A DNA stretch of 64,000 nucleotides from Kaistella faecalis. Its GTDB lineage: Bacteria; Bacteroidota; Bacteroidia; Flavobacteriales; Weeksellaceae. Positions within the stretch are counted from its first letter, which is position 1. Each line of letters begins with the position of its first letter. Positions 1,378 through 32,162 of the stretch are shown here, piece after piece. The stretch covers positions 2,371,783 through 2,435,782 of the forward strand of contig NZ_CP078067.1 of the NCBI RefSeq assembly GCF_019195395.1. The letters run 5' to 3'. A program made the position numbers and the translations under genes. Under the pieces are notes generated by a model. It was not told the DNA's origin, ran no database searches, and saw nothing but the letters and a program-made list of their open reading frames with translations.

Positions 1378-2480
1378 TGAAAATTGCATTCGACGGGAAA
1401 CGGTTTTTTAGCAATGCATCGGGTTTAGGGAATTATTCCCGGGATCTGGTTCGGATTTTAGCGATTTATTTTCCTGAAAATCGATACATTCTTTTCAATA
1501 AAAATCAATCAGAAAGAGGGAAGGAGATTTTATATCTCCCAAATGTCTCGTTCAGAGTAGTATCAAAAGGAAACCTTTCAAGGCAGTTTAAGATGGGAAA
1601 GGACGCTCAAAATGCGGATGCTGATATTTTCCACGGACTTTCAGGCGAGCTTCCTCTAAAATGGAATAATAAGTCCATAAAAAAAGTGGTCACCATTCAT
1701 GATTTGATTTTCCTGAGATTTCCGCAATATTACAGTTTTTTCGACCGCAAAATTCATTTTTGGAAATTCGGGAAAGCTTCGGAACAGGCAGATTTGATCA
1801 TTGCAATTTCTGAGCAGACCAAACGCGATATCATTAAGTACCTGAAAGTACCTGAAAGCAAAATTCGTGTTGTTTACCAGGGTTGTCATCAGTCATTTAA
1901 AGAAATTCAGTCTCCTGAATTTTTAAATTCAGTAAAAGAAAAATTTAACCTTCCAGAAAAGTTTGTCCTAAATGTCGGAACCATGGAGGAAAGAAAGAAT
2001 CTTTTGAATATTGTAAAAGCAATTAACGGAACAGAAATTCCGTTGGTTGTCATTGGAAAAAAGACCAAATATTTCAATAAAGTTCAGAAATTCATTGAGA
2101 AAAATAAACTGCTGAACCAAGTTATTTTCCTTGAAAATGTTTCGATGGAAGAATTGGCTGCAATCTATAAGCTTTCTAAAATTTTTGTATATCCGAGTTT
2201 TTTTGAAGGTTTCGGGATTCCTGTGATAGAAGCGCTTTTCTCGGGAACTGCTGTAATTACAGGCAATACCAGTTCTCTTCCGGAAGCTGGCGGTCCTGAG
2301 TCACTTTACGTCAATCCGTATCAAATGGAAGACCTTAAGTCAAAAATTTTATTTCTCTGGAATAATAAAGCAGAACGGAAAAGGCGTGCAGAAAAAGGTT
2401 TAGAATATGTTCAAAGATTCACCGATGAAAATATTGCCAAGGAGTTGATGAATGTTTATAGCGAAGTTTTGAGGTGTTAA
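1377..2480 (+). CDS. Glycosyltransferase family 4 (GT-B fold)
   Basis: Retaining nucleotide-sugar glycosyltransferase, probably acting on envelope polysaccharide. The N-terminus has the acceptor-side glycine loop (FDGKRFFSNASGLGNYSRDL). The middle has the VVTIHDLIFLRFPQYYS segment and the C-terminal half carries the EX7E-type donor motif in PSFFEGFGIPVIEALFSG, with SSLPEAGG after it. The length of 367 residues is normal for GT4. It is coupled to the upstream GT32-like gene, so the two probably add successive sugars. A short palindrome at 2479-2496, straddling the stop, could end transcription before the convergent peptidase gene. Confidence 0.88.
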   Translation: MKIAFDGKRFFSNASGLGNYSRDLVRILAIYFPENRYILFNKNQSERGKEILYLPNVSFRVVSKGNLSRQFKMGKDAQNADADIFHGLSGELPLKWNNKSIKKVVTIHDLIFLRFPQYYSFFDRKIHFWKFGKASEQADLIIAISEQTKRDIIKYLKVPESKIRVVYQGCHQSFKEIQSPEFLNSVKEKFNLPEKFVLNVGTMEERKNLLNIVKAINGTEIPLVVIGKKTKYFNKVQKFIEKNKLLNQVIFLENVSMEELAAIYKLSKIFVYPSFFEGFGIPVIEALFSGTAVITGNTSSLPEAGGPESLYVNPYQMEDLKSKILFLWNNKAERKRRAEKGLEYVQRFTDENIAKELMNVYSEVLRC

Positions 2481-22789: not shown

Positions 22790-23442
22790 TGTTGACAAAA
22801 GAACAGATCGCACAGCGAATTTCTAAGGAAGTTAAAGACCGTTATTATGTAAATCTCGGAATCGGTATCCCGACTTTAGTAGCAAACTACGTTCCTCAGG
22901 ATATTTCCGTGGAATTTCAAAGTGAAAACGGCGTTCTCGGAATGGGTCCTTTTCCTTTTGAGGGCGAAGAGGATCCGGACTTGATTAATGCTGGAAAACA
23001 GACAATTACAACGCTGCCGGGTGCTTCATTTTTCGATTCTGCTTTTAGTTTTGGAATGATCCGAAGCAAAAAAGTGGATCTCACCATTCTCGGCGCAATG
23101 GAAGTTTCCGAGAACGGCGACATCGCAAACTGGAAAATTCCTGGAAAAATGGTGAAAGGAATGGGAGGAGCGATGGATTTGGTGGCTTCGGCGGAAAATA
23201 TCATTGTTGCGATGATGCATGTAAACAAAGCCGGCGAAAGCAAAATTCTTAAAAAATGTACACTTCCGTTAACCGGTGTCGGTTGCGTGAAAAAGGTAGT
23301 CACAGAACTTGCGGTGATGGATGTTACGCCGAAAGGTTTCAGACTTCTGGAGCGTGCACCCGGAGTTTCCGTGGAAGATATTATTAAAGCTACTGAAGCA
23401 GATTTGATTATCGAAGGAGAGATTCCGGAAATGCAATTCTAA
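22789..23442 (+). CDS. scoB: Succinyl-CoA:3-ketoacid CoA transferase subunit B
   Basis: Beta subunit, 217 residues. The catalytic glutamate is in the family motif VEFQSENGVLGMGPFPFEGE (SENG). Other conserved parts are YVNLGIGIPTLVANYVP and SFGMIRSKKVDLTILGAMEV. It forms the active transferase with the product of scoA and ends with a clear terminator at 23463. Confidence 0.95.
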   Translation: MLTKEQIAQRISKEVKDRYYVNLGIGIPTLVANYVPQDISVEFQSENGVLGMGPFPFEGEEDPDLINAGKQTITTLPGASFFDSAFSFGMIRSKKVDLTILGAMEVSENGDIANWKIPGKMVKGMGGAMDLVASAENIIVAMMHVNKAGESKILKKCTLPLTGVGCVKKVVTELAVMDVTPKGFRLLERAPGVSVEDIIKATEADLIIEGEIPEMQF

Positions 23443-23462
23443 ATCAATTACTTAACAGATTC

Positions 23463-23495
23463 AATCCCTTTCAATTTTTTGAGAGGGATTTTTTT
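23463..23495 (+). terminator. Intrinsic terminator after scoAB
   Basis: AATCCCTTTCAA / TTGAGAGGGATT stem, short loop, T7 run. Confidence 0.9.
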
Positions 23496-23520
23496 GTGTT
23501 TTGAACTGAAAAGATTTTAT

Positions 23521-23639
23521 ATCTAAAATAAGCAGTGTATTTAGATAAAATTAAATATTTTATGCAAAGATTTAAAAAATAAATCTAAATTGTTTTTGTA
23601 ATTAACTAATAATATCTAATTTTGCATCCTAATTTAGAT
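23521..23639 (+). promoter_or_regulatory. Candidate operators of the arginine operon (ATCTAAW-N12-TTTAGAT)
   Basis: Two inverted repeats of identical 26-bp geometry: ATCTAAA-N12-TTTAGAT at 23521-23546 and ATCTAAT-N12-TTTAGAT at 23614-23639. The second overlaps the -7 element and the predicted start. A single half-site, ATCTAAA, lies at 23583-23589. The layout suits a dimeric or multimeric repressor. The Lrp/AsnC protein encoded at the end of the operon is a candidate ligand-responsive binder, as is an ArgR-type protein encoded elsewhere. Confidence 0.55.
23596..23624 (+). promoter_or_regulatory. Arginine operon promoter (TTG-N18-TAATTTTG)
   Basis: TTG at 23596-23598 and TAATTTTG at 23617-23624, 18 bp apart; transcription would start about 20 nt before the GTG start of the first gene. 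Confidence 0.65.
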
Positions 23640-23649
23640 AAACGTACAA

Positions 23650-24285
23650 GTGAATACGAAATTTACAGTAAAAGTTGCAACAGATCAGGACCTTATGTCA
23701 GTTCCGGCAATTCTAAAGGAAATCGAAGAATCCGCAAAAGAGCGCGGAACCGGAATTGCAAAACGTACAGCTTCATATCTTGAAGAGAAAATAAATGAAG
23801 GTAAAGCCGTGATGGCCTTTTCACCGGAAGGCGAGTGGGCGGGTTTCTGTTATATCGAAACCTGGAGTAACAAAACCTATGTCGCAAATTCCGGGTTAAT
23901 CGTTTCCCGAAAATTCAGGAACGAAGGATTGGCAAGAATGATTAAAGAAGTAATATTCAATTATTCCAGGGAAAAATATCCCAACGCAAAACTTTTTGGT
24001 TTAACGACCGGATTAGCTGTAATGAAAATCAACAGCAACCTCGGTTATAAACCCGTAACCTACTCGGAACTGACGCAGGATGATGTTTTCTGGAGCGGCT
24101 GCAAAAGCTGCGTGAACTATGAAATTCTGATGAGCAAAGAACGCAAAAACTGCCTTTGTACCGCAATGCTTTACAACCCGAACGAAATCACAGCAACAGA
24201 AATTAAGAATAATACCAAATCTGAAAATGACCAGAAGTTGTTTTCAAAATTCAAAAAAATAAAGACAATGTTATGGAAAAAGTAG
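23650..24285 (+). CDS. GNAT-family N-acyltransferase of the arginine operon (probable N-acetyl/succinyl-glutamate synthase)
   Basis: First gene of the arginine operon, 211 residues, GTG start at 23650. The GNAT fold is visible: AVMAFSPEGEWAGFCYIETW, then GLIVSRKFRNEGLARMIKEV with the acyl-CoA loop (RKFRNEGLA). The later part contains a cysteine cluster (SGCKSC...KNCLC). Because the operon otherwise lacks the enzyme that acylates glutamate, this protein is the likely first step, acting in place of classical ArgA or ArgJ. Whether acetyl or succinyl is used is not decided by the sequence. Its end overlaps argG by 13 bp, so the two are coupled. Confidence 0.82.
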   Translation: MNTKFTVKVATDQDLMSVPAILKEIEESAKERGTGIAKRTASYLEEKINEGKAVMAFSPEGEWAGFCYIETWSNKTYVANSGLIVSRKFRNEGLARMIKEVIFNYSREKYPNAKLFGLTTGLAVMKINSNLGYKPVTYSELTQDDVFWSGCKSCVNYEILMSKERKNCLCTAMLYNPNEITATEIKNNTKSENDQKLFSKFKKIKTMLWKK

Positions 24286-25463
24286 TTTTAGCTTATAGCG
24301 GCGGCCTCGATACATCTTTTTGCGCCGTTTACCTTTCAAAAGTAAAGCAGCTGGAAGTGCATGCGGTGATGGTAAATCTCGGCGGATTTTCTGAAGAGGA
24401 AATTAAAAAAACGGAGGAGCGCGCATATCAGTTGGGCGTAAAATCTTTCCATGTGATCGATGACGCGGAGAATTATTACGAAAAATGTATCAAATATTTA
24501 ATCTTCGGGAATGTTTTAAAAAATAATACATATCCGCTTTCAGTAAGTTCTGAAAGAGTTTTTCAGGCAACTGCAATTGCTGATTATGCCAAAAAAATCG
24601 GTGCAAAAGCCATCGCGCACGGAAGTACGGGAGCCGGAAATGATCAGGTTCGTTTCGACAGCATTTTCCAGATTCTTTTGCCGGAAGTTGAAATCATTAC
24701 GCCAATCCGTGATCTGAAACTTTCCAGAAATGAAGAGATTGAATTTTTGAAGAAAAACGGTTTTGAAATCAACTTTGAAAAATCTCAGTACTCCATCAAC
24801 AAAGGACTTTGGGGAACTTCGGTAGGCGGAAAAGAAACGCTGACTTCCAATTTATCGCTTCCTGAAACTGCTTATCCAACACAGATTTCAAAAACAGAAC
24901 CCGAAGAAATGTCCATCACTTTCGAAAAAGGGGAAATTAAAGCTGTAAACGGTGAAAAGTTTTCAAAACCGATCGAAGCGATCCAGAAAATCCAGGAAAT
25001 TGCGCAGGCTTTCGGAATTGGCCGCGACACGCACGTTGGCGACACCATTATTGGAATTAAAGGTCGAGTAAGTTTTGAAGCGGCTGCTCCATTAATAATT
25101 TTGAAAGCGCATCATTTGTTGGAAAAACATACGCTGACTAAAAATCAGCTTTTAATTAAGGATCAGCTCAGCCTTTCTTATGGAAATTATTTGCACGATG
25201 GTTTGGTCCTCGATCCGGTAATGAAAGATTTTGAAGCACTTTTCGAAAGTTCTCAGAAAACCGTAAACGGTACAGTTAAAATTTTATTGAAACCTTATCA
25301 TTTTAATTTGATTGGAATTGAATCTCCAAACGATTTGATGTCATCTGATTTCGGTTCTTACGGAGAAATGAACAAAACCTGGACAGAATCTGACGTGAAA
25401 GGTTTCTCAAAAATATATTCGAATGCGCTGAGCATTTATCATCAGGTAAACAACAAGAATTAA
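24273..25463 (+). CDS. argG: Argininosuccinate synthase
   Basis: Joins citrulline and aspartate using ATP. Residues 6-14 are the PP-loop (LAYSGGLDTSF), with AHGSTGAGNDQVRFDS and KGLWGTSVGGKET conserved. The length of 396 residues is normal. It starts inside the end of the GNAT gene and is followed one base later by argC. Confidence 0.96.
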   Translation: MEKVVLAYSGGLDTSFCAVYLSKVKQLEVHAVMVNLGGFSEEEIKKTEERAYQLGVKSFHVIDDAENYYEKCIKYLIFGNVLKNNTYPLSVSSERVFQATAIADYAKKIGAKAIAHGSTGAGNDQVRFDSIFQILLPEVEIITPIRDLKLSRNEEIEFLKKNGFEINFEKSQYSINKGLWGTSVGGKETLTSNLSLPETAYPTQISKTEPEEMSITFEKGEIKAVNGEKFSKPIEAIQKIQEIAQAFGIGRDTHVGDTIIGIKGRVSFEAAAPLIILKAHHLLEKHTLTKNQLLIKDQLSLSYGNYLHDGLVLDPVMKDFEALFESSQKTVNGTVKILLKPYHFNLIGIESPNDLMSSDFGSYGEMNKTWTESDVKGFSKIYSNALSIYHQVNNKN

Positions 25464-25464
25464 T

Positions 25465-26439
25465 ATGGAAAAAATAAAAGCAGGAATTGTAGGCGGAACG
25501 GGTTTTACGGCGGGTGAATTAATCAGAATTCTGCTGTATCACCCGAATGTGGAGATTTCATTTGTGACGAGCCAAAGTCTCCAGGGCTATTCTATTACCG
25601 ATGTTCATAAAGATCTTGTTGGAGAAACCAATCTGAAATTTGAAAATTTAGCACAACCCGCAGATATCATTTTTCTCTGTCTTCCGCATGGTGAAAGCAA
25701 AAACTGGCTCATCGAAAACGAAAAAGGCATCGCTCCTGAAACCAAAATTATCGATCTTGGGAACGATTTTCGTGTTGATGAAGAATGGAACGAAAAGAAA
25801 TTCATTTACGGGCTTTCAGAATTCAATAAAGAAAAAATCGCAAAGGCTTTATACATCGCGAATCCCGGATGTTTTGCAACCGCGATTCAACTGGGAATTC
25901 TTCCGATTTTGAAACAGGAAAAAATTGAAAAAATCCATTGTGTGGGAATTACGGGCTCAACCGGAGCGGGAAAAGCTTTGCATCAGTCACTGAATTTCAA
26001 CTGGCGGAACGATAATATTTCTCCTTACAAAACCTTTACGCATCAGCATATCGCGGAAATTGAAAAAAGCATTTCCTTGATTTCTGATACCAAAACGGAT
26101 ATTAATTTTATTCCTTGGAGAGGCGATTTTACACGGGGAATTTTCGTTTCACTGATGATGGAAAGCGACCTGTCTCAGGTCGAAATCGAGGAAATTTATA
26201 AATATGCGTACAAATATTCAAAATTTGTCTTCGTTTCTGCGAGCCCGATCGATATGAAACAGGTTGCGAATACCAATAAAGCATTGATTTATATCGAGAA
26301 AGTGGGAAAAAATCTTGCGGTTCACGTCGCGATTGATAATCTCCTGAAAGGCGCATCTGGACAGGCAATCCAAAATATGAATCTGATGTTCGGTTTTAAT
26401 GAAAAGGCAGGACTTAACCTTAAACCCTCCGTTTTTTAG
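25465..26439 (+). CDS. argC: N-acyl-gamma-glutamyl-phosphate reductase
   Basis: NADPH-dependent reduction of N-acylglutamyl phosphate to the semialdehyde. The N-terminal Rossmann motif is GIVGGTGFTAGELIRIL; the catalytic cysteine lies in IANPGCFATAIQLG; the histidine region is THQHIAEIE. At 324 residues it is the short ArgC type. Two bases separate it from argD. Confidence 0.95.
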   Translation: MEKIKAGIVGGTGFTAGELIRILLYHPNVEISFVTSQSLQGYSITDVHKDLVGETNLKFENLAQPADIIFLCLPHGESKNWLIENEKGIAPETKIIDLGNDFRVDEEWNEKKFIYGLSEFNKEKIAKALYIANPGCFATAIQLGILPILKQEKIEKIHCVGITGSTGAGKALHQSLNFNWRNDNISPYKTFTHQHIAEIEKSISLISDTKTDINFIPWRGDFTRGIFVSLMMESDLSQVEIEEIYKYAYKYSKFVFVSASPIDMKQVANTNKALIYIEKVGKNLAVHVAIDNLLKGASGQAIQNMNLMFGFNEKAGLNLKPSVF

Positions 26440-26441
26440 TC

Positions 26442-27581
26442 ATGAAATTATTTGATGTATATCCGTTGATGCCCGTAAATATTGTAAAGGCAGAAAACTG
26501 TAAACTTTGGGACGAAAACGGAACCGAATACCTCGATTTTTACGGCGGTCACGCGGTGATTTCTGTCGGTCACACACATCCGCATTATGTGGAAAAAATT
26601 AAAAATCAGTTGGATCAGATTGGATTTTATTCAAATTCTGTGATCAATAAACTTCAGGAAGAACTGGCAGAAAAGCTTGGAAAAATTTCCGGCTACGAAG
26701 ATTACAGCCTCTTCCTGTGTAATTCCGGGGCAGAAGCCAATGAAAATGCACTGAAAATTGCATCTTTCAATTCTGGGAAAAAGAAATTTATCACGTTCAG
26801 AAATTCATTTCACGGAAGAACTTCTGCGGTGGTTGCAGCAACCGATGATCCCTCGATTGTCGCTCCAGTAAACGAAACTGACAATTTTGTTTTTTGTGAA
26901 TGGAATAATGTTGAGCAGTTTGAAAAGCTGTTTTTTGAAAATTTTCAGGATTTGGCTGGAGTGATTATTGAAGGAATTCAGGGCATTGGCGGAATTCAGA
27001 TTCCGACTCAGGAATTAATGGATAAAATTTCGCAATTGTGCGCTGAGAATAATGTTTTCTTCATTTCTGATGAAATCCAGTCGGGTTATGCACGGAGCGG
27101 AAAATTCTTTGCTCATCAGCATTTCGGTGTAAAACCGGATATCATTACGACCGCAAAAGGAATGGCGAACGGTTTTCCGATCGGCGGCGTTCTGGTTTCT
27201 CCGAAAATTCCGGCAAAACATAAAATGCTGGGAACTACTTTTGGCGGAAATCATTTGGCTTGTGCTGCTGCCATTGCGGTTTTGGAAATTATTGAGAAAG
27301 AAAATCTGATTAAGGAATCTTTTGAAAAAGGCGAATATTTAATTCAGAAATTAAAAGGAATTTCACAGATCAAAGAAATTCGTGGAAAAGGGCTTTTGAT
27401 AGGAGTTGATTTTGAGATTCCGGCGTCTCAGGTTTCCAAAAAATTAAGGGAAGAATTTAAAATTTTTGTCGGAAGCGCAACCAATCCTTTAACCATGAGG
27501 CTTTTGCCACCACTTACGATTTCTTATCCGGAAATTGATTATTTCATCTCTTCGTTAAAATCAGTCATAAATTCAATTTAA
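26442..27581 (+). CDS. argD: Acylornithine aminotransferase (class III PLP enzyme)
   Basis: Converts N-acylglutamate semialdehyde to N-acylornithine. PLP-fold signatures are seen: CNSGAEANENALKIA, ISDEIQSGYARSGKFFAHQH and the Schiff-base lysine in IITTAKGMANGFPIGG, then TTFGGNHLACAAAIAVLE. The length of 379 residues is typical. Specificity for acetyl versus succinyl is unresolved; position in the operon fixes the role. Confidence 0.94.
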   Translation: MKLFDVYPLMPVNIVKAENCKLWDENGTEYLDFYGGHAVISVGHTHPHYVEKIKNQLDQIGFYSNSVINKLQEELAEKLGKISGYEDYSLFLCNSGAEANENALKIASFNSGKKKFITFRNSFHGRTSAVVAATDDPSIVAPVNETDNFVFCEWNNVEQFEKLFFENFQDLAGVIIEGIQGIGGIQIPTQELMDKISQLCAENNVFFISDEIQSGYARSGKFFAHQHFGVKPDIITTAKGMANGFPIGGVLVSPKIPAKHKMLGTTFGGNHLACAAAIAVLEIIEKENLIKESFEKGEYLIQKLKGISQIKEIRGKGLLIGVDFEIPASQVSKKLREEFKIFVGSATNPLTMRLLPPLTISYPEIDYFISSLKSVINSI

Positions 27582-27583
27582 AA

Positions 27584-28537
27584 ATGAAAAATTTCACATC
27601 AGTTAACGATATATCAAATCCTGAATTGCTTGTTCAGGAAGCTCTGGAACTCAAAAAAAATCTTTACGGTTTCGGGGATTTAGGAAAAAACAAAACACTC
27701 GGTTTGGTTTTTCTGAACCCGAGTTTAAGAACCAGAATGAGCAGCCAGAAAGCAGGAATGAACCTCGGAATGCAGGTTCAGGTCATTAACGCCGGACAGG
27801 ATGCCTGGAACTGGGAATTTGCAGAAAATGCCGTGATGGATGGTTCTACCGTTGAACATATTAAAGACGCCGCAAAAGTTTTAAGCGAATATTGCGACGT
27901 GATTGGTTTAAGATGTTTTCCCGGTTTGAAAGACCGTGACGAAGATTACAGCGAATTTGTGCTGAATTCTTTCATCAAATATGCAACCGTTCCCGTGATT
28001 TCTCTGGAATCTGCGACCCGGCATCCTTTGCAGAGTTTCGCCGATTTAATTACCATCCGTGAAAACTGGACTCAACCACAAAAACCGAAAGTCGTTCTTT
28101 CCTGGGCGCCGCACATCAAAGCGCTTCCACAGGCGGTTGGAAATTCTTTTGCTGAGTGGATGAATGCTGCCGATTTGGATTTTTGCATTGCAAATCCTGA
28201 AGGTTACGATTTAAGCAAGGATTTTACCGGCGATGCTAAGGTTTATCACAATCAGGAGGAAGCTTTGAAAGACGCTGATTTTGTGTATGTGAAAAACTGG
28301 TCTTCGTATGACGATTACGGCGCGATGCCGGAAGTGAAAGGAAACTGGCTTTTAGGTGAAGAATTTTTGAAAACAAATCCTGAAACAAAATTCATGCACT
28401 GTCTTCCGGTACGCAGAAATCTGGAAATGAGTGACGCGGTTCTAGATTCTGCGAATTCTCTGATTTATCAGCAGGCGAATAACAGAACGCTTTCCGCGCA
28501 GTTAATCATCAAGAAAATCCTTGAAAATTCTTTTTAA
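27584..28537 (+). CDS. argF': N-acylornithine carbamoyltransferase (argF' type; probably succinylornithine)
   Basis: Carbamoylates N-acylornithine, the variant route known from Bacteroides and Xanthomonas. The carbamoyl-phosphate motif reads NPSLRTRMSSQKAGMN rather than the STRTR of ordinary ArgF, and the C-terminal motif is FMHCLPVRRN. The family residue that decides substrate (Pro90 in the Bacteroides fragilis succinylornithine enzyme, Glu92 in the Xanthomonas acetylornithine enzyme, from memory) falls on Val90 here (MDGSTVEH). From what I recall of published mutants, small or hydrophobic residues there favour succinylornithine. Length is 317 residues. Confidence 0.92.
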   Translation: MKNFTSVNDISNPELLVQEALELKKNLYGFGDLGKNKTLGLVFLNPSLRTRMSSQKAGMNLGMQVQVINAGQDAWNWEFAENAVMDGSTVEHIKDAAKVLSEYCDVIGLRCFPGLKDRDEDYSEFVLNSFIKYATVPVISLESATRHPLQSFADLITIRENWTQPQKPKVVLSWAPHIKALPQAVGNSFAEWMNAADLDFCIANPEGYDLSKDFTGDAKVYHNQEEALKDADFVYVKNWSSYDDYGAMPEVKGNWLLGEEFLKTNPETKFMHCLPVRRNLEMSDAVLDSANSLIYQQANNRTLSAQLIIKKILENSF

Positions 28538-28538
28538 A

Positions 28539-29327
28539 ATGGAAGATTTATATGTCATAAAAATCGGCGGTGAAACCATCAACAGCAAAGATTCGCTTAA
28601 AGCCTGTCTGAAAGCAATATCGACGGCGGGAAAAAAGGTGGTTTTGGTACATGGCGGCGGAAAAAAAGTCACCGAACTGGCGCAGAAACTCTTCATTCCC
28701 CAACAGATGGTGGAAGGGAGACGGATAACTTCCTTGGAAACTCTGGAACTCTGCACGATGGTTTATGCGGGTCTTATCAATAAAAATATCGTCGCGGGAT
28801 TATCAGCTGAAAAACTCCTGGCAATAGGACTTTCAGGAGCTGATCTGAACTGTATTGTTTCGAAAAAAAGAGATGCTTCTGTGATTAATTACGGTTTTGT
28901 GGGCGACATCGTGAAGGTGAATGAGACGGTTTTTGAAAATTTTATCAGTCAAAATATAATTCCGGTGGTTAATTCCATCAGCATCAGCGAAGATGGTGAG
29001 CTTTTAAATACGAATGCTGATGTAATGGCGGCGGAAATCGCAAAAGCAATGTCGGATAAGTACAAAGTGCATCTCCTTTACTGTTTTGAGAAAAACGGAG
29101 TTTTAAAAGATATTACCGATGAAAATTCAGTAATTATGGACATTTCAAAAACAGATTTTACGCACATGAAAGAAACGAAACAGATTGCCGACGGAATGAT
29201 TCCGAAACTGCAGACTGCTTTTCGAGCGCTGTATCACGGTGTGGATGAGGCAAGAATTCTTAAAAGTGACGCGCTGGAAAATTATTTTACCAACGAAAAC
29301 CCCGGAACAAATATCAGTTTACATTAA
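28539..29327 (+). CDS. argB: N-acylglutamate kinase
   Basis: Phosphorylates N-acylglutamate. The start is taken at ATG 28539 (MEDLYVIKIGGETINS), just after the argF' stop; an upstream in-frame ATG at 28521 would overlap argF' and adds nothing conserved. Motifs: VIKIGGE, VLVHGGGKKVTEL and VNSISISEDGELLNTNADVM. It has 262 residues and lacks the extended N-terminal helix of arginine-inhibited kinases, so feedback inhibition by arginine is doubtful. The stop overlaps the argE start by one base. Confidence 0.94.
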   Translation: MEDLYVIKIGGETINSKDSLKACLKAISTAGKKVVLVHGGGKKVTELAQKLFIPQQMVEGRRITSLETLELCTMVYAGLINKNIVAGLSAEKLLAIGLSGADLNCIVSKKRDASVINYGFVGDIVKVNETVFENFISQNIIPVVNSISISEDGELLNTNADVMAAEIAKAMSDKYKVHLLYCFEKNGVLKDITDENSVIMDISKTDFTHMKETKQIADGMIPKLQTAFRALYHGVDEARILKSDALENYFTNENPGTNISLH

Positions 29328-30379
29328 TGGAGATTTTAAATAACGAAGTCAGAAATTTTTTGATTGAATTGATCGAAACGCCCTCTTTCAGTAAAGAAGA
29401 GGAAAATACAGCGTTAATCATTGAGAAATATTTAAACCTGAAAAACATCCCGTTTCAGAGAAAAGGAAATAATATTTGGGCAAAAAATCTTTATTTCGAT
29501 GAAAATTTGCCGACAATTCTGCTCAATTCCCATCATGACACGGTAAAGCCGAATTCCGGGTACACATTGGATCCGTTTAAAGCGGTGAAAAAAGACGGGA
29601 AGATTTTTGGCTTGGGAAGCAACGATGCGGGCGCAAGTCTGGTGAGTTTATGGGCAGTTTTTGCGCATTTTTATGCAAAAAAACTTAAATATAATTTAAT
29701 TTATGCAGCCACGGCCGAAGAAGAAATTTCCGGTGAGAACGGAGTGAAATCGATTTTGGAAGATTTAGGAAAAATTAATTTTGCCATTGTTGGTGAGCCT
29801 ACGAAAATGGATTTGGCGGTTGCGGAAAAAGGTTTGGTTGTATTGAATTGTGTGGCGAAAGGAACAGCTTCTCATGCTGCTCACATTAATGATGATAATT
29901 CGATCTATAAAGCGGTTCGGGACATTCAGAAAGTACAGAATTTTGAATTTGATAAGATTTCAGAAGTTTTAGGAAAAGTAAAAGCGACCGTGACGATTGT
30001 AAATGCAGGTTCCCAACACAATGTGGTTCCGGATCAGTGTCATTTTACAATTGATGTACGGACGAATGAACATTATTCCAATTCAGAAATTGTGGAAATT
30101 TTCAAAAAAGAGCTGGAGTCTGAAATTCAACCGAGATCATTGGCTTTAAATTCTTCAAAAATTAATTTGGATCACCCTTTTGTTTTGGCAGCGCAGCAAG
30201 AAAACTGTAATTTATACGGTTCTCCGACGGTTTCAGATCAGGCTTTAATGCCTTTTGATTCTGTGAAAATCGGGCCCGGAGATTCCATGCGTTCGCACAC
30301 GGCGGATGAATTTATTTACGAAAAGGAACTCGCTGAAGGCATCGAAAAATACATTGAAATCCTCTCTCATATTCTTTAA
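29327..30379 (+). CDS. argE: N-acylornithine/N-acylcitrulline deacylase (M20 family)
   Basis: Zinc hydrolase that removes the acyl group late in the pathway. M20 features: LLNSHHDTVKPNSGYTLDPF (metal His and Asp), GLGSNDAGASLVSLWA, ATAEEEISGENG (catalytic and metal Glu) and IVGEPTKMDLAVAEKG. Because ArgF' makes acylcitrulline, this enzyme probably works on that compound. It has 350 residues and is linked tightly to argB and argH. Confidence 0.92.
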   Translation: MEILNNEVRNFLIELIETPSFSKEEENTALIIEKYLNLKNIPFQRKGNNIWAKNLYFDENLPTILLNSHHDTVKPNSGYTLDPFKAVKKDGKIFGLGSNDAGASLVSLWAVFAHFYAKKLKYNLIYAATAEEEISGENGVKSILEDLGKINFAIVGEPTKMDLAVAEKGLVVLNCVAKGTASHAAHINDDNSIYKAVRDIQKVQNFEFDKISEVLGKVKATVTIVNAGSQHNVVPDQCHFTIDVRTNEHYSNSEIVEIFKKELESEIQPRSLALNSSKINLDHPFVLAAQQENCNLYGSPTVSDQALMPFDSVKIGPGDSMRSHTADEFIYEKELAEGIEKYIEILSHIL

Positions 30380-30381
30380 AA

Positions 30382-31704
30382 ATGGAAAATAAAAAACTTT
30401 GGGCGAAAGATTCAGCCAACCAGAATCATTTGGAAATTATTGAAAAATTTACCGTTGGTAAAGACAAAGATTTCGATATTTTATTGGCTCAGTACGATAT
30501 TCTTGGGACAAAAGCACATTGCAAAATGCTTGCAAAAATCGGTTTTTTAGGGGAGGAAGAAAATAATGCTATTCAGAAAGAGCTGGATGAAATGTATATT
30601 TTGGCTAAAGAAAATAAGTTGTTAATCAACGATGGAGTAGAGGATATTCACAGCCAGATTGAGTTTAATTTAACTCAAAAACTGGGAGATGCCGGAAAGA
30701 AAATTCACACAGGAAGATCACGAAACGATCAGGTTTTATTGGCGATCAAATTATATTTAGCGTCAGAAATCAAAGAAATTGCACAACTTTCAAAGAATTT
30801 ATTTGAACGTTTAATTAACCTCGCAGAAACTCACAAATCTGCATTAATGCCGGGTTACACGCATTTTCAGATCGGAATGCCTTCTTCGTTTGGATTGTGG
30901 TTTTCTGCTTTCGCCGAATCTTTATCCGAAGATTTAGAGGTTTTAGCCGCAGCTTTATCCGTGGTTGAGAAAAATCCTTTAGGTTCGGGTGCCGGTTTTG
31001 GATCTTCTTTTCCACTGGATCGGGATTTTACAACAAAAGAGCTGAATCTAGAAAAAATGAACATCAATTCTGTTTACGCACAAATGACGCGCGGAAAATC
31101 AGAAAAAATCACAGCGATGGCAATGAGTACGGTGGCTGCGACTTTAAGCAAACTTGCTTACGATATCTGCATGTTCAGCAATCAGAATTACGGTTTTATC
31201 AGTTTTCCATCCGAACTAACGACCGGAAGCAGCATTATGCCTCACAAAAAAAATCCTGATGTTTTTGAACTGATCCGTGCAAAATCTGCCCGAATTCAGA
31301 GTCTTCCGAATGAACTTACACTGCTTATAAACAATCTACCATCAGGCTATCACAGGGATTTTCAGTTGACAAAAGAAATTATTTTCCCGGGAATCCAGGA
31401 TTTGAAAGACTGTCTGCAAATTTTTGAATTTATGCTGAAACACATTAATGTGAAGGAAGATATTTTGAAGGACGAAAAATATGATTATCTTTTCAGCGTC
31501 GAAAAAATCAACGAACTGGTGATGAGCGGAGCAAGTTTTCGGGAGGCCTACCGCGAGGTCGGAAATTCCATTGAAAACGGTTCGTACAGTTACCGAAACG
31601 ATGATTTAAAGCATACCCACAAAGGGAGTATCGGGAATCTATGCCTCGACGAGATTACTCAGAATTTTGAGGAAATCTTCAGGAAATTCAATAAAAATAT
31701 ATGA
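30382..31704 (+). CDS. argH: Argininosuccinate lyase
   Basis: Final step, releasing arginine and fumarate. The superfamily signature is GSSIMPHKKNPDVFELIRAK, with HTGRSRNDQVLLAIKLYL near the N-terminus and MPGYTHFQIGMPSSFG in the middle. The length of 440 residues is normal. Its last codons overlap the start of the Lrp/AsnC regulator by four bases (ATGA). Confidence 0.96.
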   Translation: MENKKLWAKDSANQNHLEIIEKFTVGKDKDFDILLAQYDILGTKAHCKMLAKIGFLGEEENNAIQKELDEMYILAKENKLLINDGVEDIHSQIEFNLTQKLGDAGKKIHTGRSRNDQVLLAIKLYLASEIKEIAQLSKNLFERLINLAETHKSALMPGYTHFQIGMPSSFGLWFSAFAESLSEDLEVLAAALSVVEKNPLGSGAGFGSSFPLDRDFTTKELNLEKMNINSVYAQMTRGKSEKITAMAMSTVAATLSKLAYDICMFSNQNYGFISFPSELTTGSSIMPHKKNPDVFELIRAKSARIQSLPNELTLLINNLPSGYHRDFQLTKEIIFPGIQDLKDCLQIFEFMLKHINVKEDILKDEKYDYLFSVEKINELVMSGASFREAYREVGNSIENGSYSYRNDDLKHTHKGSIGNLCLDEITQNFEEIFRKFNKNI

Positions 31705-32162
31705 AGACACTAGACAGTACAGACCATAAAATTCTTAATTTCATGCAGGAAGATTCCACCGTTTCCGTAAAAGATCTGGCGGAAAAGATCGGGCTTTCCT
31801 TCACTGCGACCTACGAAAGGATAAAATCGCTGAAGCATCACGGCATTATCAGAAAAAATGTTGTGCTGATTAATGCAGAACTTGCAGGATTCGAGATTAT
31901 GGCGTACTGTAATATCGTGTTAAAAGAGCAGTCGAACGAAAAACTGCAGGAATTTGAACAGAAAATAAAGGATGAGCCACAGGTTCTGGAGGTGGTAAGT
32001 CTCTCGGGACAATATGATTATATGATCAAAGTTGTGGCAAAAAACATTAAGGATTATAATAATTTTATGACGACTGTTGTAGCAAATATCCCCAACATCG
32101 GCCAGTATCACAGCAATATCGTACTTTCGGTCATTAAAAATGACACAAAATTTACTTTTTAA
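31701..32162 (+). CDS. Lrp/AsnC-family transcriptional regulator
   Basis: A 153-residue regulator: N-terminal HTH (LDSTDHKILNFMQEDSTVSV, then KDLAEKIGLSFTATYERIKS) and a C-terminal RAM ligand-binding domain (VLEVVSLSGQYDYMIKVVAK). Being translationally coupled to argH, it is made in step with the arginine enzymes and is a natural candidate for feedback control of the operon through the repeats at 23521-23639. Which amino acid it senses is not visible. Confidence 0.92.
   Translation: MKTLDSTDHKILNFMQEDSTVSVKDLAEKIGLSFTATYERIKSLKHHGIIRKNVVLINAELAGFEIMAYCNIVLKEQSNEKLQEFEQKIKDEPQVLEVVSLSGQYDYMIKVVAKNIKDYNNFMTTVVANIPNIGQYHSNIVLSVIKNDTKFTF

Follow-up and report, generated by a model that had tools for sequence, protein, structure and literature searches.

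A 31-bp-phased ladder of AGAT-N5-ATCT sites at the arginine promoter of Kaistella faecalis as a probable operator of the argH-linked Lrp/AsnC protein

Introduction

FL11 (PH1519) of Pyrococcus horikoshii OT3 is an archaeal member of the Lrp/FFRP family, and its known role is in lysine metabolism. It forms an octamer and has lysine or arginine as its ligand (PMC2995911), and its sites are reported to lie about two turns apart, with spacers of 15–17 bp (PMC10201364). With BarR and similar local archaeal Lrp regulators, several 15-bp semipalindromes follow one another close to a metabolic gene at regular distances of two or three turns (PMC10201364, PMC2995911). The Lrp of E. coli, a global and leucine-responsive regulator whose octamer wraps DNA, has the consensus CAG-N9(A/T)-CTG (PMC6640053), and spacers of 27–29 bp, corresponding to three turns, have been reported for it (PMC10201364). 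For Lrp proteins, there are published examples of wrapping and of sites spaced by three turns (PMC2995911, PMC10201364, PMC6640053). End-product control of arginine synthesis, which is the job that we propose here for a Lrp protein of Kaistella, is also that of ArgR at its ARG box, although ArgR belongs to another protein family and recognizes another site.

Here, we describe the promoter of an arginine operon in a 64-kb stretch of the Kaistella faecalis genome (the window; all coordinates refer to it). We found no prior description of an arg ladder system in the open-access literature that we searched.

Results

The arginine operon ends with an Lrp/AsnC gene

The first gene of the operon (23650–24285, + strand) encodes a 211-aa protein that matched no Pfam family at E 0.001 and is probably an acetyltransferase of the GNAT type; the gene is conserved upstream of argG across Bacteroidota. 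It is followed on the same strand (24273–31704) by tightly packed argG, argC, argD, a gene for an argF-type carbamoyltransferase, argB, a gene for an argE-type M20 peptidase and argH. The stop of argH is overlapped by a gene for a 153-aa Lrp/AsnC regulator (31701–32162, + strand), the proposed binding protein of the sites described below. Elsewhere, in reduced genomes of ~600 kb (G274, G283, G291 and others of f16), the homologue of the first arg gene was seen inside an open frame of ~590–630 aa, suggesting a fusion.

The 31701–32162 protein has an N-terminal AsnC-type HTH (PF13404, 2.7e-12) and a C-terminal AsnC/RAM domain (PF01037, 5.6e-19), both above the cut-off, and its fold is clear from the Pfam and PDB sequence matches. 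Among the solved structures, FL11/PH1519 was its second-best match (E 1.3e-20); the archaeal protein is ~30% identical to it. The two share a GxYD motif in the RAM domain, which we take to be the effector-pocket motif: GQYD of the Kaistella protein is aligned to GDYD of FL11 and is invariant in the aligned orthologues. The FL11 sequence used here came from the structure-match alignment, and no result depends on its first few residues. The genome has four Lrp-family genes in total.

Five sites occupy one 31-bp register across the promoter

Bacteroidota promoters follow the consensus TTTG at −33 and TAnnTTTG at −7. Upstream of the first arg gene, we observed the −7 element TAATTTTG (23617–23624, + strand), which is conserved in relatives, and a probable −33 element, TTTG (23595–23598, + strand), assigned from the sequence and this consensus. 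The transcript is predicted to start near 23631 and would have a leader of ~20 nt. A terminator-like hairpin with a T run (23463–23495, + strand), which probably belongs to the upstream gene, lies just 5′ of the sites.

A preliminary description of this region had reported two inverted repeats of identical geometry and a half-site, and we found all three at exactly the positions given: repeat 1 (23521–23546) is ATCTAAA (23521–23527)-N12-TTTAGAT (23540–23546), repeat 2 (23614–23639) is ATCTAAT (23614–23620)-N12-TTTAGAT (23633–23639), and the half-site ATCTAAA is at 23583–23589. Repeat 2 was also rightly placed over the flavobacterial −7 element TAATTTTG and the inferred start site. What had been overlooked is the left half of a complete site, AGATTTTATATCT (23512–23524), and a common 31-bp register. 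The AGAT and ATCT words of this promoter lie on a strict 31-bp lattice with centres at 23518, 23549, 23580, 23611 and 23642, and its unit is a 13-bp dimer site, AGAT-N5-ATCT, which is equivalent to AG-N9(A/T-rich)-CT.

Site 1, AGATTTTATATCT (23512–23524, centre 23518), is the full dimer site with 8/8 matches and the only ladder site of this promoter that has both halves. In site 2, AGATAAAATTAAA (23543–23555, centre 23549), the left half is the strong one. Site 3, AAAAAATAAATCT (23574–23586, centre 23580), is immediately 5′ of the −33 element; its strong half is the right one and carries the half-site ATCTAAA mentioned above. Site 4, ACTAATAATATCT (23605–23617, centre 23611), again with a strong right half, is in between the −33 and −7 elements, and site 5, AGATAAACGTACA (23636–23648, centre 23642), with a strong left half, follows the inferred transcript start and precedes the GTG start codon. 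The two 26-bp repeats have the same geometry because each consists of the right half of one site and the left half of the next, sites 1 and 2 for repeat 1 and sites 4 and 5 for repeat 2. The step of 31 bp makes three helix turns. Operator arrays of the Lrp/AsnC family consist of 13–15-bp semipalindromes with an A/T-rich centre, set two or three turns apart on one helix face, and the array agrees with this form in its AG-N9-CT sites (compared with CAG-N9-CTG for E. coli Lrp) and its 31-bp register.

The phasing is statistically distinct

Six of the seven AGAT/ATCT words between 23500 and 23655 fall in one 31-bp register, the exception being an AGAT at 23568. In 20,000 dinucleotide shuffles, this phasing was never reached, either at period 31 or elsewhere in the range of 18–47 (the promoters share ancestry and are not independent trials, and the shuffle figures overstate independence), and when seven words were placed at random 200,000 times, it was never reached at period 31. 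When periods of 20–44 were scanned over the window, the largest in-phase cluster elsewhere had three words, compared with six for the arg promoter at period 31.

Pooled promoters of relatives gave the same period. Over 13 thinned promoters, the summed period score was 59 at 31, 38–39 at 30 and 32, which partly carry the period-31 signal under the 1-bp tolerance of the score, and 23–36 otherwise. Over 14 thinned promoters, the gaps in AGAT-Nx-ATCT peaked at 5 and 36 (5+31), those in ATCT-Nx-AGAT at 18 and 49, and the distances between identical words at 31 and 62. Some ATCT words that overlap the −7 element may partly reflect conservation of the promoter.

The pair of repeats is unusual. In the window, ATCTAAN13TTTAGAT at 0–1 mismatch matched only repeats 1 and 2, and pattern searches of the 2.66-Mb genome yielded two exact occurrences of ATCTAA-N14-TTAGAT, both at the arg promoter. 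However, the degenerate motif gives no genome-wide signal: with up to one mismatch it had 10 sites in the genome, against 13 for a reversed-pattern control. The 26-bp motif was rejected as a regulon marker, as its genome matches with at most one mismatch were not above the control and six of the eight other sites were inside long open frames. A second AGATTTTATATCT in the window (1525–1537) is within an ORF and was taken as a chance occurrence.

AT-rich intergenic DNA gives many short palindromes, and in the window the count of two-mismatch matches to ATCTAAN13TTTAGAT was that of the background; one might hence regard the words as accidental, or as parts of an RNA hairpin or attenuator instead of DNA operators. 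We consider this extremely improbable. Both the phasing statistics and the conservation across genera (see below) speak against it, chance being excluded by the shuffle and random-placement tests, and so does the position of four of the five sites 5′ of the inferred transcript start.

A conserved register in which the strong half switches sides

The proximal repeat was observed in all seven Kaistella-clade loci (L011–L017), six being exact over ATCTAA/TTAGAT and one having a single mismatch. Some relatives received their genus label through near-identity to named loci or through their position in the tree. To this extent the 26-bp motif of the preliminary description does recur in relatives, but the left half of the proximal repeat is missing in Chryseobacterium and Epilithonimonas, where the 31-bp register persists. 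Register −31 has ATCT in Kaistella, AGAT in Epilithonimonas and both in L125, L127 and L128, while register −93 has AGAT in Kaistella and ATCT in L127 and L128. Symmetric dimer sites would be expected to show this pattern of a fixed register with the strong half on either side, but a 26-bp operator would not.

Complete AGAT-N5-ATCT sites were found in L125, L127, L128 and L199. The same words form tight palindromes at other Weeksellaceae arg promoters, AGATAAATTATCT in L125 and L127 and AGATAATTTATCT in L128, and also in two Flavobacterium genomes (AGATAAAATATCT); L012 carries CAGATTATTTATCTG, which may be compared with the E. coli Lrp consensus CAG-N9-CTG. Chryseobacterium retains words at about −94, −63 and 0. 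The register can drift by 1–2 bp, as in Chryseobacterium (63) and L175 (32/32). The cleanest ladder that we have seen is that of a Flavobacterium genome (L175/L199, G292), with two perfect AGAT-N5-ATCT sites 32 bp apart and a third word 32 bp further on.

These data bear on the proposal that the operator unit is the 26-bp ATCTAAA-N12-TTTAGAT, bound by one dimer of the linked Lrp or of another regulator through half-sites two turns apart. Both repeats do exist, and the proximal one is present throughout L011–L017. However, the loss of its left half in Chryseobacterium and Epilithonimonas with retention of the register, and the complete 13-bp sites of the four loci named above, are contrary to this proposal, which also does not predict site 1 or the in-register middle half-site. 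We therefore regard a 26-bp unit as quite unlikely; the repeat reads instead as the facing halves of two 13-bp AGAT-N5-ATCT sites 31 bp apart.

The ladder co-occurs with the argH-linked lrp

The lrp gene abuts argH in both orientations. The Kaistella clade and two or three further genera have it as the last gene of the arg operon, whereas in most relatives (Chryseobacterium, Epilithonimonas, Flavobacterium and others) the orthologue is convergent and directly follows argH. With support of 100/99, the argH-linked Lrp proteins group in one clade, to which three unlinked copies belong as well but none of the paralogues. A second, unlinked Lrp of the in-operon subclade was observed alongside the argH-linked copy in L112 and L113 (genus g11), and another unlinked one is L114 (G002, g3), in whose genome argG gave no hit.

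At least two in-register words were present in 45 of 46 promoters with an argH-adjacent lrp but in only 2 of 80 without it, and at least three in 32 of 46 and 0 of 80, respectively; co-loss of adjoining genes inflates this co-occurrence in the in-operon group, with a smaller effect for convergent lrp genes. Of the 36 genus genomes, the 15 that have the first arg gene are exactly the 15 that have the close Lrp. Within Flavobacteriaceae, a close Lrp was found only in G292 and G306, and the ladder likewise only there; the other Flavobacterium genomes have neither. A class-wide search by the Lrp alone identified two genomes outside the order, both with the gene beside argH. One of them (L235) has two words exactly 62 bp apart at its arg promoter. 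In the other (G699, L234), despite its linked lrp, we saw no more than a single near-complete site.

With four Lrp-family genes in the genome, the ladder might instead be bound by one of the three other paralogues or by a global regulator, the linked lrp being a mere neighbour. This is improbable. The ladder tracks the linked Lrp clade, and the paralogues are also present in ladder-less genomes. When 4-word ladders were searched in the 36 genus genomes, exact matches occurred only at three arg promoters (G000, G136 and G026), so that no other genus-shared ladder was found that would point to a global regulator. The one-mismatch matches elsewhere in these genomes gave no sign of common arg-related sites. 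Judging from the sequence comparisons, it is very likely that the ladder is bound by the 31701–32162 protein, although carA, the sole other pathway gene checked, had no ladder upstream. The Lrp/AsnC gene at the operon end had already been named as the prime candidate, and the Pfam-confirmed family, the overlap with argH and the phylogenetic co-occurrence, in which it is the best candidate, bear this out.

ArgR and leader-peptide attenuation

An ArgR gene (PF01316) was found in 0 of 42 genomes, including that of the Kaistella faecalis window, with or without a ladder; E. coli and a Bacteroides ring were among the controls of the profile search. No ARG box with up to two mismatches, and no pair of 18-bp ARG boxes, was present at the promoter (23400–23700). 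The remark in the preliminary description that the sequence is unlike the classical ARG box is consistent with both results. The argH-linked Lrp seems to stand in for ArgR.

We also looked before the first gene for an Arg-rich short ORF with a terminator, as in leader-peptide attenuation, and found none at this promoter, where the inferred leader is only ~20 nt. In arg operons without a linked lrp, however, a short ORF ending in arginines often precedes the first gene. By a crude ORF scan, at least four Arg in the last 14 residues were seen in 36 of 80 loci without lrp and in 1 of 46 with it. Examples are ...SVRPVPVRVRR*, ...FSRPRRRPVF* and MLQLHTIFTFSIRRSGIRRP*, and such ORFs were noted 5′ of the GNAT gene in L019, L024, L033, L037, L063, L074 and L085, and in Flavobacteriaceae in L182, L184 and L186. 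From their sequences, these short ORFs are probable arginine leader-peptide attenuators, and control by lrp and ladder on the one hand and by leader peptide on the other look largely exclusive. Leader-peptide attenuation has already been suggested for amino-acid operons of F. psychrophilum (PMC9723704).

Discussion

We propose that the arg promoter of Kaistella faecalis is a 31-bp-phased, five-register ladder for the argH-linked Lrp/AsnC protein, which would wrap it cooperatively and repress it, probably in response to arginine; we assign this reading a probability of about 0.82. The sites, their phasing and conservation, the co-occurrence and the single protein clade were computed, and from them we infer the binding, the repression, the arginine effector and the wrapping. 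An arginine-responsive repressor is proposed because of the precedents for wrapping and spacing, the AG-N9-CT geometry and the match to FL11.

In this model, Lrp dimers belonging to one oligomer, an octamer or larger, would occupy one face of the helix at intervals of three turns, and the oligomer would wrap ~137 bp, from 5′ of the −33 element to the start codon. Exclusion of RNA polymerase in the bound state is expected because sites 4 and 5 cover the promoter core, the former in the −33/−7 gap and the latter just past the start, while sites 1–3 would add cooperative binding and wrapping. With lrp at the end of the operon, the circuit would be autorepressive here. The autoregulation suggested earlier can therefore be kept for Kaistella but not as a general property, as the region upstream of the convergent lrp genes has no clear ladder.

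Binding of the linked Lrp need not mean repression by arginine. Lrp proteins can activate as well as repress, and the best-kept words of Chryseobacterium include upstream ones, at −94 and −63, in addition to those at the start. The overlap of sites 4 and 5 with the promoter core nevertheless favours repression in Kaistella, which we consider likely from the site arrangement. An effector such as ornithine or lysine, or no ligand at all, may also be envisaged; however, the end product is the obvious signal of the pathway and FL11 binds arginine. By this analogy, arginine is the most plausible co-repressor of a pathway-specific repressor and a fairly likely one, and we judge activation or another effector to be a minority possibility, though the least improbable of the alternatives.

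The Kaistella Lrp resembles that of E. coli in family and in the AG-N9-CT geometry of its sites, but appears limited to one, adjoining operon, and wrapping, a property of the E. coli octamer, is predicted for it. The several regular semipalindromes are like those of BarR-type regulators, although pathway, ligand and half-site sequence differ, and the sites are three turns apart instead of the approximately two turns of FL11.

On a broader scale, the Bacteroidota without ArgR may possess two interchangeable arginine modules, one consisting of a local, FL11-like Lrp repressor and its 31-bp ladder, the other of leader-peptide attenuators rich in arginine. The lrp-ladder module would accompany the operon when this is lost or moves, as it may have done into a few Flavobacterium species and into the two genomes outside the order. 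To this joint reading we would give even odds.

These findings point to a likely regulator of arginine synthesis in Kaistella, Chryseobacterium, Epilithonimonas and others, a large group of bacteria in which no ArgR was found. The proposed operator grammar, AGAT-N5-ATCT repeated at steps of 31 bp, is exact and can be tested, and the arg promoter would be an unusually clean natural array for the study of DNA wrapping by Lrp oligomers.
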